From positions 1 through 36,012 of IMG/VR virus record IMGVR_UViG_3300043466_003107: a stretch of DNA of 36,012 nt. One strand, 5' to 3'. Source of the stretch: a virus. Made by a program: the position numbers and the translations under genes. Of the stretch, positions 6,329-12,727 are shown piece after piece (position 1 is the stretch's first letter; each line of letters starts with the position of its first letter). Under the pieces are notes generated by a model. The model had not been told where the DNA came from. It searched no databases and worked only from the letters and a program-made list of their open reading frames with translations.

Positions 6329-8692
6329 CTACTTGCCTGTTAAACCACGAATCCCAACAAATGCGTCCTTAATTTCTGGGACAACATCATCTGATTCATC
6401 AATAATGATCATCTTATTACCAAGTTCGTCGGTCGTGATTCTACCTTTGCGGGTTCGCTGCCGTGGCATCATATTAAACTCTGCCGCTTTTTCGACGCTC
6501 ATTTTGAGCATTTCACGCCCGTGTTTTAGCTCTTCAATCTTACGCTCGCGTTCATCTTCAAGGTAAATCTTTTCTCGTTCTAATTGTTGTTTTTCGCGTT
6601 CTAACGTTGCTTTTAGCGCAAGTTCAGCTTCGTCCTTCATCTTTTGCTGCTGCTGTTTCATCATTTCAGCTTGCAACTTTTGAGCTTCTACTTGTGCCGT
6701 TATCTCATTCTCGGCAGATGCCTGCTGCTGGCCTTGCTGTGTGGCCTGCTCCTGTTGCATCCGTTGTTGTTCTTCCATCGCCTTGGCTTCTTGTCGAGCC
6801 TTTTCCATCTCTGTCTCAACTTCGGTGAGCGCTTTTTCTAATTTGCCTTTTATTTCTCGGCCTGCTTCAAACTGGCTAGTTGTGTAAAGGGTTATCTCGT
6901 TAATAACTGGCATCAACTGCGGAATCGCTTGAGCGTGTGGAAGCAATACGTTAAACAAATTGCCTAGTGCATTAGTTAGGTCAATTGCAGATTGTTTTGC
7001 AGCTTCTTGGTCTGCGAAAGTAGTCGAATCTGTTTCAATATCAATGCGATAATCGCTTTGAGTATCATTGCGAAGTAGGTCAATTACACCGCCTAAATAC
7101 TCTTCTATTTCAGGGTCGTTACTGACACCTGCCATCTTAATCATGGTTTGCGATTGGAAGTGGTTCTTGATGACTTGCGCAATTAGGGCAACCACGTCTC
7201 GGCAAAACTTGGCGACTTTCCGCTGCCTATCGCTAATTCGACTCATCGCGTACTGAGTCTTAATCTGTTGTGCCCCTAAAGTCTCGGAAGCACGAGAAGT
7301 CCCGCGTACAATGTCAGAGATACCCGTGATATCGTATATCTGTTGCTTTTCTTGCTCCATCGCTTCATGCAGCACTCTCAAAATCGCCGCATGGTCGGCC
7401 ATCGATAGTACTTCCAGTGCGGTTTTTACGCCGCCCTGTTGTAGGTACATCTGAAAGTTAGAAAGCTGAATATGGGTACCGTTTGGCTTTCTTAGTATGT
7501 TATCTAGCTCTGGGTTCTCGCTGCTAGATATCGAAAGCACCTTGATGTATCTCGCAATATCTTGGGCTTTTTGGCAAAGCTGATTAAGCGTCTCTTGCTG
7601 GTCTTGGTAGAAACAGATATCGGGTCTTGGGATAAGTCCCGTGGTAAGGGTAGCAAATAAAGGTTCAGGGCAGGGGAAGAACTCATCAAAAACAAGGTAA
7701 GGTTCGTCCTCTTTTAAGACTTCGTTGTGCCCTTCAGCTAACCAATAGACCTTATTAGAATCCTTACACCAAACCTCATAAACGCAAATACGGCCCTTGT
7801 TTATTTCCTTCTCCGCGTCTTCTTGCGCCGCTTCCTGCGAGTTGCGATAAGTAACGTAAGCATCTTCTCCGAATTTCTCCTTAAACTCTTTTTTAGTTAT
7901 ATGGGTTTTTCGGGCTACTTTTCGGACTTCCGCCCAAGTTCTTGCTGGTTCAAACAGCAGGTCCGTCCAATGGATGTAATCGACAACGCATCGCTCATCG
8001 ACAAGCGTTTCAACGGGCTCGCCGTCAATGTAATACCCTTCATCGTCTTGCTTAACGAGTTTGGGGTCTACAGGTTGCCCCATCTCATCAACGTACTGTT
8101 CTTGGCCTTCCGGTGCTTCTGGGTAACTTTCTGGGGCTTCACCCGCTTCGGGAGCTTCTGGCCCTTCTTGTTCGCCGCCCATCTCCTCCCCCATACCCAT
8201 CGGAGGCATTCCAGGCATTTGGCCCATCATAGGGGCAGGGGACTCAGGCAACTCTTGCACTCGAATTTTCGGAACCTCTACGCCTATTTTTGGCTCGTAA
8301 CGTACCCATAGGGCACCTTGGCCTACCACCAAATAATCATCAACGGCGCGTGACACGGCGGCATCGAACCCCGAGACTTCCACCTGAAAGCGTGTGCAAC
8401 GCTCTAAAATCTGGCTCCCTAAACGCGCTGTAATGTCCTTTGACGGGTATCGCCTAAATATCTCCGGCTTTGGAGGTTGGGCGTAAAGAGCAGGTTTGAG
8501 GGTATTAACAATCGACCAAAACACGTTCAATTGTGCAGGTCTTTCAACGTAGGGGCTGTAATCTTCTCCGGCATAAAGCTGCTCGCTGCGCCTTGCCATC
8601 TCATAGTAACGCTCACGCGCCTTTTTCCACCGTCGTATCTCGGTGTGCAGGGGATGCTCTTTGTCTTTATCGTCGCTTTCGTACTCAGCCAT
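6329..8692 (-). CDS. Portal protein, podovirus type (787 aa)
   Basis: The portal forms the dodecameric ring at one capsid vertex through which DNA is packaged and ejected. The length, the N-terminal pattern (RRWKKARERYYEMARRSEQLY, then NVFWSIVNTLKPALYAQPPKPE) and the position directly after the large terminase support the call. Later landmarks are a tryptophan-rich wing region and a helical stem with QEAINQL-like residues (ETLNQLCQKAQDIARY). A Met/Pro/Glu-rich low-complexity insertion occupies about 148-215. The C-terminal 180 residues are a long Gln/Glu/Lys helix, reminiscent of the barrel of P22-like portals. The following genes begin 13 bp downstream. Confidence 0.88.
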   Translation of the reverse strand: MAEYESDDKDKEHPLHTEIRRWKKARERYYEMARRSEQLYAGEDYSPYVERPAQLNVFWSIVNTLKPALYAQPPKPEIFRRYPSKDITARLGSQILERCTRFQVEVSGFDAAVSRAVDDYLVVGQGALWVRYEPKIGVEVPKIRVQELPESPAPMMGQMPGMPPMGMGEEMGGEQEGPEAPEAGEAPESYPEAPEGQEQYVDEMGQPVDPKLVKQDDEGYYIDGEPVETLVDERCVVDYIHWTDLLFEPARTWAEVRKVARKTHITKKEFKEKFGEDAYVTYRNSQEAAQEDAEKEINKGRICVYEVWCKDSNKVYWLAEGHNEVLKEDEPYLVFDEFFPCPEPLFATLTTGLIPRPDICFYQDQQETLNQLCQKAQDIARYIKVLSISSSENPELDNILRKPNGTHIQLSNFQMYLQQGGVKTALEVLSMADHAAILRVLHEAMEQEKQQIYDITGISDIVRGTSRASETLGAQQIKTQYAMSRISDRQRKVAKFCRDVVALIAQVIKNHFQSQTMIKMAGVSNDPEIEEYLGGVIDLLRNDTQSDYRIDIETDSTTFADQEAAKQSAIDLTNALGNLFNVLLPHAQAIPQLMPVINEITLYTTSQFEAGREIKGKLEKALTEVETEMEKARQEAKAMEEQQRMQQEQATQQGQQQASAENEITAQVEAQKLQAEMMKQQQQKMKDEAELALKATLEREKQQLEREKIYLEDERERKIEELKHGREMLKMSVEKAAEFNMMPRQRTRKGRITTDELGNKMIIIDESDDVVPEIKDAFVGIRGLTGK

Positions 8693-8776: not shown

Positions 8777-11353
8777 CTAAATCCGCCACCGATTGCTGAC
8801 ATCGTCCACCGCTTCCACCAAGTCCGAATAGGTCACCGCGTTTGGGTCTCGGCGTTTCTTCTTGTCAAACCGTGGAATGACTGGCCATTGCATACAAATA
8901 TATCTAATGCAATCCCCGATATGATCGGCCCCCTGCGTATCCACGTCTTCCGGCCTTCTGTCGTCGTGTTGAAGCATCGGAAAGGTTCGAAGCAAGTGCT
9001 TACAGCTGCGAGTAAACAGCAAACTCTTCTCTCTTAGCCTCATCCGTATCTGGTTCCAGCCTGGAATTCTCGATTTATCGCTTCTTGAGAAATACACGCC
9101 CGCAATCGCCAACGCATCGGCAATACTTTGACCGCCGTGGTTCTCAAATATCTGGTTATCGGCAGGCCCTGGCTCTATCCTTCTCTTAATAGTGGACTCT
9201 CGCTCAGTAATGCCGTCTCGAATGTCAACCAAGGACATCTTTAACCCCTCATCTTTATCATTCCCACCGTACCATTCTCGTAAAATAACAATGGAGCCCT
9301 TTTTGATGCCTCTCCAATCCTCTCCAGCATACGTGTACCAAAGCACAGCAAACGGGTGATAGGTCCCGTGGTCGTAAGCTCTATAAATCTTCCAATGATT
9401 CGGGATGTCATCAGGGTCAATCGCATCAATAACATGCTCTTGGCTAAACTCAGGGAAGTAGGCCCCGGCCACAACGTCCCAATCCCCGTGCAACCATGCC
9501 CGTACCATCTCAGGGCTTCCAATCTCATGAAGCCTTTGAACATAGGTAGGGTCGGCCTTCATCAGAATCTGGTTATCGGTTACTCTAGAAGGGATAAACA
9601 TCCTATGAAGTCCGGTGTCTTGCTCAAGTAGCTTATAGCCTTGAGGGTTCTCGGCTATCCCATAACGCGCCTTTACCCATCCGTGGCCCACGCCTCCCGG
9701 GTTCGCAGTCAATCGAATTCGCTTATGAGGCACATCGTGAGGGCTCCTCAAACAAGCAATCATCTGGGTGAACCCCTCATCAGTGGCAAAGTTCCCGACC
9801 TCATCGAAGCCTAGCCATGTTAAGTTAAAACCCTGATAATTGGTCGCATCCCTTGCATGCGCCATATACCTCAAGTACAGCTTAGCCCCATTCGGCCACT
9901 TCCAAACCTTCTCATTCGCATTATAAGAAGCACCGGTTTGGGGGTAAAACTCGAAACTCTGTCGAATCACCTCCTCTAGTTCTGGGTAAGTCCTACGGAA
10001 GAGCATCCCAATCCAGTGCTGCTTATAAACCGAAACGTCACTTACAAAATCTCCTAAAAGAGCCGCGGTGTTGTGCGTTGGTATGAAACTCTTTGTCACC
10101 AAAAACGTATGACTTGGAGAATCCACCGTTAAACATTGCGTCCAAACCGGATCTATTGGCTCAATATTTGTGATGTAATGCCATTTTTGTGTCTCCCTTA
10201 AAACCTTAGGCAATCTTTGACTTTTTCTAAATAGCCTAAAAACAGGTAGGGCAGTAGTCGCTTTTACGATCCAAGCTAGTTTCCCCTCTACAGGTCCATT
10301 CCTCCCATTCGTACAAATTGGTTTTTTTGACGTGATAAATGGCTTTACCCCTAAACTGGCTAGTAACTCAAAAACTCCTCTCGATAACCCTTCATTCGTA
10401 TTGCAAAACTCAATTTGACCATCTGACATGCAGCTGCCGTCAGTATCAAACAACCCCTGCAATAACTCTAATCTTTGTTGTGGCGATGAATGAAGATATT
10501 GTTCAGGGATATGCTTATTCCCCGCGACGCCTAATCGTTTTAACTCGGTAATGAAAGGGATGTCCCTCCATATTTTGTATTCAATATCATTATCGTATCG
10601 CCGTGACTTATACCCGTAATAATGCAATTCCCGAGTCATGTCTCGTGCATCTTGATCACCAATTGCAATGACTCCACTATCTGAACTCCCATCACCTAAC
10701 CAAACCCCTAACACGTAGGGAGGAATTGGCAAATCTCTCTCCGGCTGGTCAACGGTTCCAGCTAACTTAATTGCATGATTTACTTCTCGCCCGTTTTGAA
10801 CTTTTAACGTCTCAAAAAGCTCCTGCGTGTCCCGCATTGTTCCAGTACTTGGCTCTTTGTACTGGTATTCTCGCGCCCTATTTAGCTCGGTAACCTTTTT
10901 TTGGCTCCCCACATTCTTAGGGTCACTTTTAGCCCTAGACGGACGGTTTTCTCTTCGCTTTGCACGGTATTCGTCAGTGCATTTATAGTTAGAAACTCGC
11001 TCAGCTTTTGAATAGGTAATCCAGCGATGCACATCGTCGGCGACAATTTGCTGGCCATTGTCAAACGTCAATAGATAGCACTGCCTTAAAGTCGGCTCGC
11101 TCTTAAAAGTCACGGTAGTTGGCTTGCCATCAGCATCAAAAATCACATCCCCAACTTTGAGATCGCCGACAGTAGACCACCCGTAAGTAGTTAAAACCTC
11201 TGTAGAAAGTTTCAGGCCTTTTCCGCCTCCGCGCGCTCCTCCGAACAGTATCTCAGGCACGCTCCTGTATTTTAGGAGGTCTTCTTGAGGCCCCTTCTGT
11301 GGGAACCATACTAACTTTGAGGCCCGTTTTAATATCTCGCTGCTTCCGTCCAT
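8777..11353 (-). CDS. terL: Terminase large subunit interrupted by a class 3 intein (858 aa precursor)
   Basis: This is the motor ATPase and nuclease that packages DNA. Numbering is from the ATG at 11353; an upstream in-frame GTG (11404) lacks a Shine-Dalgarno. The Walker A motif is split after GGARGGGK (K45). An intein fills residues 46-428, and the extein resumes with T429 AALLGDF. Splicing would restore GARGGGKT and leave a 475-aa enzyme, a normal length. Walker B is LGFDE (about 514-518) and the coupling motif is TANPGG. Nuclease-domain aspartates are visible at about D661 (AYDHGTYHPFA), D732 and D814 (HIGDCIRY). Without splicing the ATPase should be dead, because its P-loop is broken. 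Probable small-subunit gene upstream, portal downstream. Confidence 0.93.
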   Translation of the reverse strand: MDGSSEILKRASKLVWFPQKGPQEDLLKYRSVPEILFGGARGGGKGLKLSTEVLTTYGWSTVGDLKVGDVIFDADGKPTTVTFKSEPTLRQCYLLTFDNGQQIVADDVHRWITYSKAERVSNYKCTDEYRAKRRENRPSRAKSDPKNVGSQKKVTELNRAREYQYKEPSTGTMRDTQELFETLKVQNGREVNHAIKLAGTVDQPERDLPIPPYVLGVWLGDGSSDSGVIAIGDQDARDMTRELHYYGYKSRRYDNDIEYKIWRDIPFITELKRLGVAGNKHIPEQYLHSSPQQRLELLQGLFDTDGSCMSDGQIEFCNTNEGLSRGVFELLASLGVKPFITSKKPICTNGRNGPVEGKLAWIVKATTALPVFRLFRKSQRLPKVLRETQKWHYITNIEPIDPVWTQCLTVDSPSHTFLVTKSFIPTHNTAALLGDFVSDVSVYKQHWIGMLFRRTYPELEEVIRQSFEFYPQTGASYNANEKVWKWPNGAKLYLRYMAHARDATNYQGFNLTWLGFDEVGNFATDEGFTQMIACLRSPHDVPHKRIRLTANPGGVGHGWVKARYGIAENPQGYKLLEQDTGLHRMFIPSRVTDNQILMKADPTYVQRLHEIGSPEMVRAWLHGDWDVVAGAYFPEFSQEHVIDAIDPDDIPNHWKIYRAYDHGTYHPFAVLWYTYAGEDWRGIKKGSIVILREWYGGNDKDEGLKMSLVDIRDGITERESTIKRRIEPGPADNQIFENHGGQSIADALAIAGVYFSRSDKSRIPGWNQIRMRLREKSLLFTRSCKHLLRTFPMLQHDDRRPEDVDTQGADHIGDCIRYICMQWPVIPRFDKKKRRDPNAVTYSDLVEAVDDVSNRWRI
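10070..11218 (-). mobile_element. Class 3 intein with LAGLIDADG homing endonuclease, in terL (383 aa)
   Basis: The intein starts at Gly (codon 11216-11218) and ends with His-Asn before Thr. Block A is GLKLSTEVLT...GW followed by DLKVGDVIFD. Block B is IVADDVHRW, with His at B:10 and Trp at B:12. Block F is QCLTVDSPSHTFLV, with Cys at F:4 in place of the usual Asp. Block G is FIPTHN followed by +1 Thr. Trp, Cys and Thr are the class 3 signature, in which the F:4 Cys replaces the missing N-terminal nucleophile. Two dodecapeptide motifs of a LAGLIDADG endonuclease are visible, LGVWLGDGS and LLQGLFDTDG, so the element is probably mobile. Its insertion point is between Lys and Thr of the P-loop. 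Confidence 0.92.
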
Positions 11354-11737
11354 AGAGCCCCGTAAATGGCCTGTAGTGCAATGGTGATGGATACAGGATA
11401 GCACAGGTATTGGGGGATTCGGATAGGGGCTAAAAGGAGGTAGAGGGGCTTTAGAAAGGGGGGTGGATGAGACTCTTTAGGGGGTTGATGGGGGGTGGGG
11501 TCCCCGGGGGGGGTCAGTTGTTAAAAGATTCTTAAGGGCTGGGGAAAGGAGTTGTCAAGGAATGCTTGATAGGTGGAAGGGGTGGCTTTAGAAGGAGCGG
11601 TCCTGGGTATTTTTGGGTAGGGGGGATTGGGGGCTTGATGGGAAATTCGTTTAGAGACGAGGGGGGGGGTAATTTCTATATTGAACAGATTATCGGACAA
11701 ACCTAGATTAAACCTATAACCTATCATCGGAGAACCT
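11354..11737. other. G-rich intergenic region with potential G-quadruplex
   Basis: I see no convincing gene here. The plus strand is strikingly G-rich. At 11480-11513 runs of 5, 6, 4 and 8 G are separated by short spacers, which is enough for a G-quadruplex. Another run of 9 G lies at 11661-11669. Because the late operon is transcribed leftward, its RNA here would be C-rich. The right end holds a promoter-like sequence for the HNH gene. A minus-strand reading frame at 11521-11727 has no ribosome site and low complexity, so I do not call it. Confidence 0.6.
11681..11709 (+). promoter_or_regulatory. Sigma70-like promoter for the HNH gene
   Basis: A TTGAAC hexamer (11681-11686) and a TAGATT hexamer (11704-11709) are separated by 17 bp, in an AT-rich patch between G-rich stretches. 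The HNH start codon lies 28 bp downstream, with GGAGA in front of it. The spacing is ideal, but the hexamers are only moderate matches. Confidence 0.45.
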
Positions 11738-12244
11738 ATGAATATTCAAACCGCCATCAAAGACGGAAAGTTCCTTAAACGATTCTGGTCAAAAGTTAAT
11801 AAAACCAAAGACGGGTGCTGGTTATGGACTGGGAGCCAAACGGTCGGAGGATATGGGGCAATTCGCTTACCGTCACCCTTAACCCAGAAAATTATGACTC
11901 ATCGAGCTAGTTACTTAATCGCCACTGGACAAGAAATAGACGGGTTAGAAGTCTGCCACCATTGCGATAACCCTAGTTGCGTGAACCCAGAGCATCTTTG
12001 GGTTGGAACACATAAAGAAAACATGAACGATTCAAAGAATAAAGGCCGATTAGACGCTTTTATGTATGCAAAAACAAAACATCTCCGGTTTGACGTTGGC
12101 AGCGTTCATCGGGACCTAACCCACTGTAAAAGAGGGCACCCGTTCGATGAAAAGAATACAGGGAAGCAAGCAAATGGACGGTACTGTAAGAGATGCGAAG
12201 CCGATAGAAAGCAGCAGAAAAGAGCACAGGAAAAGCTTGGTTAA
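11738..12244 (+). CDS. HNH homing endonuclease with C-terminal zinc ribbon (168 aa)
   Basis: This is a free-standing HNH-type DNA endonuclease. The N-terminal part has the GCWLWTGS...GGYG pattern common in phage HNH enzymes. The HNH core is VCHHCDNPSCVNPEHLWVGT (about 72-91), followed by NMNDSKNKGR. The C-terminus holds a second metal site, CKRGHPF (C130, H134) with CKRC (C150, C153). It sits between the small and large terminase genes but on the opposite strand, antisense to the late transcript. That is typical of an inserted homing gene. Translation would start at the ATG with GGAGA upstream. Its target is probably in or near the terminase genes, by analogy with other free-standing HNH genes. 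Confidence 0.9.
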   Translation: MNIQTAIKDGKFLKRFWSKVNKTKDGCWLWTGSQTVGGYGAIRLPSPLTQKIMTHRASYLIATGQEIDGLEVCHHCDNPSCVNPEHLWVGTHKENMNDSKNKGRLDAFMYAKTKHLRFDVGSVHRDLTHCKRGHPFDEKNTGKQANGRYCKRCEADRKQQKRAQEKLG

Positions 12245-12249
12245 TTGAG

Positions 12250-12288
12250 CTGGGGACGGGGGGTGGCTTACGACGCCCGTCTCCCCAG
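12250..12288 (+). other. Strong hairpin just after the HNH gene
   Basis: CTGGGGACGGG (12250-12260) pairs with CCCGTCTCCCCAG (12276-12288) with one 2-nt bulge, 5 bp after the HNH stop. No U-run follows, so it is not a standard intrinsic terminator. It may still slow transcription or protect the 3' end of the mRNA. A run of 10 G follows at 12332-12341. Confidence 0.5.
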
Positions 12289-12373: not shown

Positions 12374-12727
12374 CTATTGGGGCTCGGAGTCGGGACGGAT
12401 GCTAGCGATTGCATCAAACAGGTCATCACTCGTGCGAAGTTTTCTAGGGACCGATAATTGGTGATTATCGGACATTAGACTCGGAGAAGAGGATTCTATC
12501 CTGCGCCTTTCCGACTCAGCGCGTATCTCGTCAAGGGTTATTGCTTCCGGAGCTACTGCGCACAGCTGTATATCTACGTGTCGAACGGTTTCGCGGTCGC
12601 CGTACACCCAACTGAGTACCTCTTTAGCAGCGGCCACCTTGTCTCTTGCCGTCCCGTCTTTGAGCACATCGCGGAGAGCGTCGATAGCCTCAGGGACCAA
12701 GTGTTCCAGTCTCAATCTAATTGTCAT
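12374..12727 (-). CDS. terS: Probable terminase small subunit (117 aa)
   Basis: The small subunit recognises phage DNA and hands it to the large subunit. The N-terminal half (LRLEHLVPEAIDALRDVLKDGTARDKVAAAKEVLSWVYG) is a pair of helices of the type seen in many small terminases, with a charged, Ser/Arg-rich tail. It is the first gene of the leftward late operon and precedes the large terminase; only the antisense HNH gene separates them. GAGAGG sits 5 bp before the ATG. No DNA-binding motif is beyond doubt, so the call leans on helix pattern, size and position. Confidence 0.6.
   Translation of the reverse strand: MTIRLRLEHLVPEAIDALRDVLKDGTARDKVAAAKEVLSWVYGDRETVRHVDIQLCAVAPEAITLDEIRAESERRRIESSSPSLMSDNHQLSVPRKLRTSDDLFDAIASIRPDSEPQ

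Follow-up and report, generated by a model that had tools for sequence, protein, structure and literature searches.

Terminase gene and intein boundaries

The window, that is, the whole stretch of viral DNA analysed (36,012 nucleotides), carries on its minus strand a terminase large subunit gene interrupted by an intein. The open reading frame at 8777-11353 matched PHROG terminase families with E-values of 2.8e-36 to 1e-8 and contained Walker A/B ATPase and nuclease motifs; the portal gene (6329-8692) comes next after it. Pfam Terminase_6N scored under its cut-off, with a match limited to residues 429-526, past the intein. ATG 11353 was preferred as the start codon, the upstream GTG 11404 being less likely. 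In the following, a slash marks an intein insertion point.

8777..11353, minus strand: terminase large subunit precursor, 858 aa, from ATG 11353; matches PHROG terminase families
11219..11353, minus strand: N-extein, 45 aa, ending in Walker A residues GGARGGGK; delimited from empty alleles
10070..11218, minus strand: class 3 intein with LAGLIDADG endonuclease, 383 aa
8777..10069, minus strand: C-extein, 430 aa, starting with the P-loop Thr (+1), TAALLGDF

The intein comprises precursor residues 46-428 (GLKLSTEV...SFIPTHN). When the exteins were joined computationally, a protein of 475 aa from ATG 11353 was obtained, reading GGARGGGK/TAALLGDF. In IMG/VR, alleles of this terminase that have no intein run through GG[AS]RGGGKTAALLGDF without interruption. 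Six near-identical alleles lacking the intein here have GG[AS]RGGGKTAALL, and because they read through, the Lys/Thr boundary was fixed independently of any motif reading. The original prediction had placed an intein at 10070-11218, between Lys and Thr of GGARGGGK/T and with Gly at position 1; the coordinates proved exact, the motifs were correct, and the intein-free alleles gave the same boundary and the same first residue.

A free-standing HNH endonuclease gene adjoins the terminase start (plus strand, 11738-12244, within 11599-12250; Pfam HNH_3, E 3.7e-09; PHROG 826, E 1.8e-40). By flank comparison the ∼650 bp carrying it are missing from relatives L003, L022, L023, L024, L025 and L030, so the segment looks like a separate homing insertion. 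Also upstream of the terminase, a 117-aa open reading frame (12374-12727, minus strand) is kept in relatives and takes the position of the small terminase subunit; no family match to it was obtained in Pfam or PHROG.

Class 3 assignment and structural model

11216..11218, minus strand: intein residue 1, Gly, without a nucleophile
11021..11029, minus strand: block B His64-Arg-Trp66, Trp at B:12
10124..10138, minus strand: block F QCLTV, residues 361-365
10133-10135, minus strand: Cys362 (F:4), predicted internal nucleophile, from alignment
10070..10078, minus strand: block G Thr381-His382-Asn383, with Thr381 the triad Thr (G:5)

By sequence the intein is of class 3. Position 1 is Gly, neither the Cys nor the Ser of class 1 inteins. 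The Trp-Cys-Thr triad of class 3 lies at B:12, F:4 and G:5 (PMC5050341); here Trp66 is at B:12, 2 residues past the block B His64, Cys362 is at F:4, aligned with Cys124 of 6rix, and Thr381 of PTHN is at G:5. The C terminus is His382-Asn383, followed by the +1 Thr. Searches with phmmer matched the class 3 DnaB inteins 6rix and 6bs8 (E 5e-16 to 5e-15), and H-x-W, the Cys of block F and THN all lined up. His64/Trp66, Cys362 and Thr381-His382-Asn383 align with H65/W67, C124 and T143-H144-N145 of 6rix, the M. chimaera DnaB1 intein (E 5e-16), for which residue roles were taken from PMC7664689. Trp B:12, Cys F:4 and the class 3 call had been predicted correctly. The third triad member had been misnamed as the +1 Thr; since the published triad uses G:5, it is Thr381, and the class 3 call stands because that residue is present. 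The +1 Thr is predicted to be the extein nucleophile, outside the triad.

An AlphaFold model of the intein, made with 67 sequences, had a pLDDT of 93.5 and combined a HINT fold with a LAGLIDADG domain. The whole protein matched PI-SceI with Z 25-27. The splicing part matched 6bs8 (Z 20.9, 1.5 Å over 126 residues) and 6rix (Z 20.5, 1.9 Å) at 36-37% identity; these were the best matches among mini-inteins, the others scoring lower, with Z of about 14-18.

It is very improbable that the class 3 reading is mistaken and that the element belongs to class 1 or class 2 or is a remnant that no longer splices. Gly at position 1 is by itself compatible with class 2 and there is otherwise no substantial support for this, whereas the whole triad of Trp B:12, Cys F:4 and Thr G:5 is in place and does not vary among relatives. 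Between window-type alleles pN in the splicing regions was about 0.01-0.03 against a pS of about 0.1-0.25, and these regions thus appear to be under purifying selection. Even when its triad is intact, a class 3 intein may splice slowly or depend on certain flanking residues. Merging of intein-bearing and intein-free strains during metagenome assembly was also considered, every sequence of the phage group being a metagenome contig, some relatives breaking within the gene and L003/L032 being two ends of one contig. The same in-frame junction was, however, found in several independent metagenomes, with inteins 86-96% identical, and such merging is scarcely credible.

Relatives and known systems

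At least 582 relatives of the intein were found in viral contigs. The 76 examined come from the best 80 of these, picked by similarity to the P-loop intein. None of the 76 departs from the class 3 residues or from the two LAGLIDADG aspartates; their position 1 is Ala, Leu, Gly, Met, Pro or another residue. Ala-Lys or Gly-Lys precedes the intein and Thr or Ser follows at +1 in 64/76, many of which are GGxxGGGK terminases. The description of the intein as an unusual, minority-class element with an endonuclease was consequently overstated. The suggested search of phage terminases for the insertion site was productive: the same Lys/Thr or Lys/Ser position is filled in Eureka, Ali17, SOVA965 and many IMG/VR terminases. 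The diverged terminase L008 carries the same intein family. Among the GenBank phage matches listed, identity was at most about 35% over the full intein length and no isolate of the group was present; bacterial genome contigs searched with the intein gave no relative.

A class 3 P-loop terminase intein is a known kind, nothing new in itself. Published examples are the mycobacteriophage TerL1-a inteins, which split the P-loop between Lys and Thr (Kelley et al., 2016, PMC5050341). In the same work, two terminase inteins were demonstrated to cut the empty allele, those tested in E. coli spliced quickly, and terminase inteins of the surveyed mycobacteriophages were confined to the ATPase domain. 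A class 3 intein in the P-loop has also been published for M. smegmatis DnaB.

Eureka, a TerL1-a carrier to judge from its insertion site, shares with the window the gene function (terminase), the Lys/Thr Walker A position and the LAGLIDADG motifs, and its intein has class 3 blocks (Ala at position 1, HLW, VCIQI, PTHN/T). The two inteins are only about 30% identical, however, and the terminase and host group differ. M. smegmatis DnaBi1 (6bs8) and M. chimaera DnaB1 (6rix) have the class 3 residues and HINT fold in common with the window intein, and DnaBi1 the P-loop insertion as well, but both are mini-inteins without an endonuclease, in DnaB and with Ser at +1. PI-SceI (the yeast VMA1 intein) has the same HINT plus two-motif LAGLIDADG architecture but is of class 1 and 15-18% identical. 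The Vibrio phage VCO139 terminase (L015) has a class 3-like intein that retains THN and the Cys of block F but lacks the B:12 Trp, with HIN in place of HxW.

Endonuclease and putative recognition cassette

10688..10714, minus strand: LAGLIDADG motif 1, VLGVWLGDG, residues 169-177 (Asp176)
10436..10465, minus strand: LAGLIDADG motif 2, LLQGLFDTDG, residues 252-261 (Asp258, Asp260)
10493..10687, minus strand: recombining putative DNA-recognition cassette in the endonuclease N half, residues 178-242

Two LAGLIDADG motifs had been predicted and both are present. Pfam LAGLIDADG_3 was matched over its cut-off (E 4.6e-06), and the aspartates that are invariant in 76/76 relatives are Asp176 and Asp260.

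The splicing domains of window-type inteins are 97-99% identical. Residues 178-242, the first endonuclease half past motif 1, occur in three versions with about 55-60% protein identity. The exchange was seen across window 10493-10687 and L021, L022, L024, L029 and L003; in the third version (L021) the exchanged stretch is longer, at about residues 141-270. Between versions the cassette pS was 0.68-0.96, near saturation, and such divergence next to a near-identical splicing domain points to recombination rather than slow drift. Plain positive selection was rejected as the cause on the same contrast (pS about 0.1-0.25 in the splicing regions). Version B was found in at least three independent metagenomes, version A in two and version C once, and the recurrence of A and B disfavours assembly chimeras. 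Residues 178-242 probably contact DNA, as judged from the LAGLIDADG fold. Cassette type was paired with the P-loop Arg codon (CGC or AGA) in six alleles, a number too small to claim a link.

Three intein sites in one phage group

An IMG/VR scan with the C-extein gave 15 loci of nearly the same terminase (93-99% amino acid identity in the best segment). Their neighbouring portal genes are 85-92% identical in DNA over the matched part, so the loci represent one phage group. Besides the Walker A position (site 1), two further positions are filled in some of these alleles.

9820..9821, minus strand: site 2, Walker B region, empty in the window, YQGFNL/TWLGFDE
8920..8921, minus strand: site 3, nuclease motif, empty in the window, GADH/IGDCIRY
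L030:3642-4616, L029:2530-3504, L027:1409-1798: site 3 inteins (DH/C...HN/C)

Site 1 is intein-free in 6/13 alleles, L023, L025, L026, L031 and L033 among them, and holds a different class 3 intein, 44% identical to that of the window, in two (L030, L034). L033 and L034 carry a class 1 intein at site 2 (YQG.../C...NKN/CW[IL]GFDE); no relative of this Walker B intein was found among GenBank phages. The diverged terminase L008 has an intein at a position related to site 2. Site 3 is filled by a class 1 intein, reading GADH/CFTG...VHN/CADVVRY, in L027, L029, L030, L031, L032, L034 and L035. A mini form of 130 aa occurs in L027, L031, L032 and L034, and a longer form of 325 aa, in which no endonuclease domain was recognised, in L028/L029, L030 and L035. 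GenBank phage MW202478 (L173) also has a mini-intein at site 3. This site lies outside the ATPase domain, unlike the published mycobacteriophage terminase inteins. In L034:429-4325 all three sites are filled within one 1298-codon open frame, with a class 3 intein at Walker A, a class 1 intein at Walker B and a class 1 mini-intein at the nuclease motif; in the window terminase site 1 alone is filled.

The native P-loop Thr is kept in every allele, so the +1 residue does not have to change for the class 3 intein. The class 1 inteins of sites 2 and 3 are instead followed by Cys at +1; Thr, Ala, Val, Ile or Leu occupies that position in the empty alleles. The Haloferacales MCM double inteins likewise occupy several neighbouring polymorphic sites in one essential gene, and at one of them the +1 residue is co-converted (PMC10643990); that gene is an archaeal helicase, and the likeness is drawn without regard to intein class.

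Nucleotide diversity in 13 intein-excised alleles was 0.18, 0.28 and 0.22 at the three sites against a mean of 0.097. An equal rise was given by 0.03% of random triples and 6/1389 joint shifts, and diversity was also raised among alleles without the intein. Amino-acid changes were clearly in excess at sites 2 and 3; the excess at site 1 was mainly synonymous. The raised diversity at intein targets is a lead, not proof, the test having been chosen after seeing the data and the alleles being recombining. Between sites 1 and 2 (terminase codons 45-90 after KLVWFP, downstream of the P-loop, 13 alleles), synonymous diversity was 0.03-0.13 against about 0.4 elsewhere in the gene; a gene conversion tract, a sweep or constraint are possible causes.

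Proposed mechanism and role

The locus very probably holds a mobile class 3 intein with a LAGLIDADG homing endonuclease, lodged in a phage terminase large subunit at its Walker A loop. Given the residues, fold, boundaries and presence/absence alleles observed, the splicing chemistry may be proposed by analogy with studied class 3 inteins. Cys362, with help of His64 and Thr381 and with the core packed by Trp66, would attack the Lys(-1)-Gly1 bond. Transfer of the N-extein acyl group to the +1 Thr would follow, and Asn383 would cyclise with His382 assisting, releasing the 475-aa terminase with its P-loop restored. As in studied homing inteins, the endonuclease would cleave the P-loop codons of terminase genes lacking the intein, and repair from an intein-bearing copy would insert the intein into the cut gene; the existence of presence/absence alleles supports both steps. 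The P-loop may be favoured because its conserved sequence keeps the target always there, its own Thr supplies the +1 nucleophile and imprecise loss would kill the gene.

Since close relatives show both presence and absence of the intein, it appears to be mainly a selfish element, any role as a control switch being unproven. The original prediction had suggested a timing switch for packaging. An essential role of this kind was ruled out by the common intein-free alleles (6/13); these, together with the two alleles in which another class 3 intein takes its place, show that the phage can do without it. A redox-conditional role would involve one further residue.

11078..11080, minus strand: Cys47, aligned with the redox partner Cys48 of M. 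smegmatis DnaBi1

Oxidation could join Cys47 to Cys362, so that splicing stalls and packaging waits for a reducing cell, the intein being kept as a conditional switch. In DnaBi1, also a class 3 P-loop intein, a Cys48-Cys118 disulfide halts splicing (PMC6195587); Cys47 aligns with its Cys48 and Cys362 with its block F Cys, and Cys47 is kept in 38/67 aligned sequences. Against this, the intein is missing at site 1 in 6/13 alleles, the alternative site 1 intein has no Cys in the Cys47 column, and the terminase inteins tested so far splice fast (PMC5050341). DnaBi1 Cys48 is moreover needed for splicing itself, so conservation need not mean regulation (PMC6195587). We regard the switch as unlikely and retain the mainly selfish element as the preferred reading.

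Tentatively, the terminase may be seen as a battleground of three mobile inteins, in which endonuclease specificity shifts by cassette swap and targets diversify in an arms race. If true, an arms race between homing element and target would be readable from natural alleles.

As a class 3 P-loop terminase intein, the window member is one of hundreds. Its surroundings, with three polymorphic sites and cassette exchange, are of more interest than the intein itself, which has greater value as the marker of a natural allele series. In this series, intein sites are filled or empty in many combinations across near-identical terminases, one of which has all three filled, and one endonuclease occurs in three versions whose differences lie almost entirely in the putative recognition half. 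The series would allow direct tests of cassette against target choice, of the interplay of co-resident inteins and of a P-loop intein against packaging delay.
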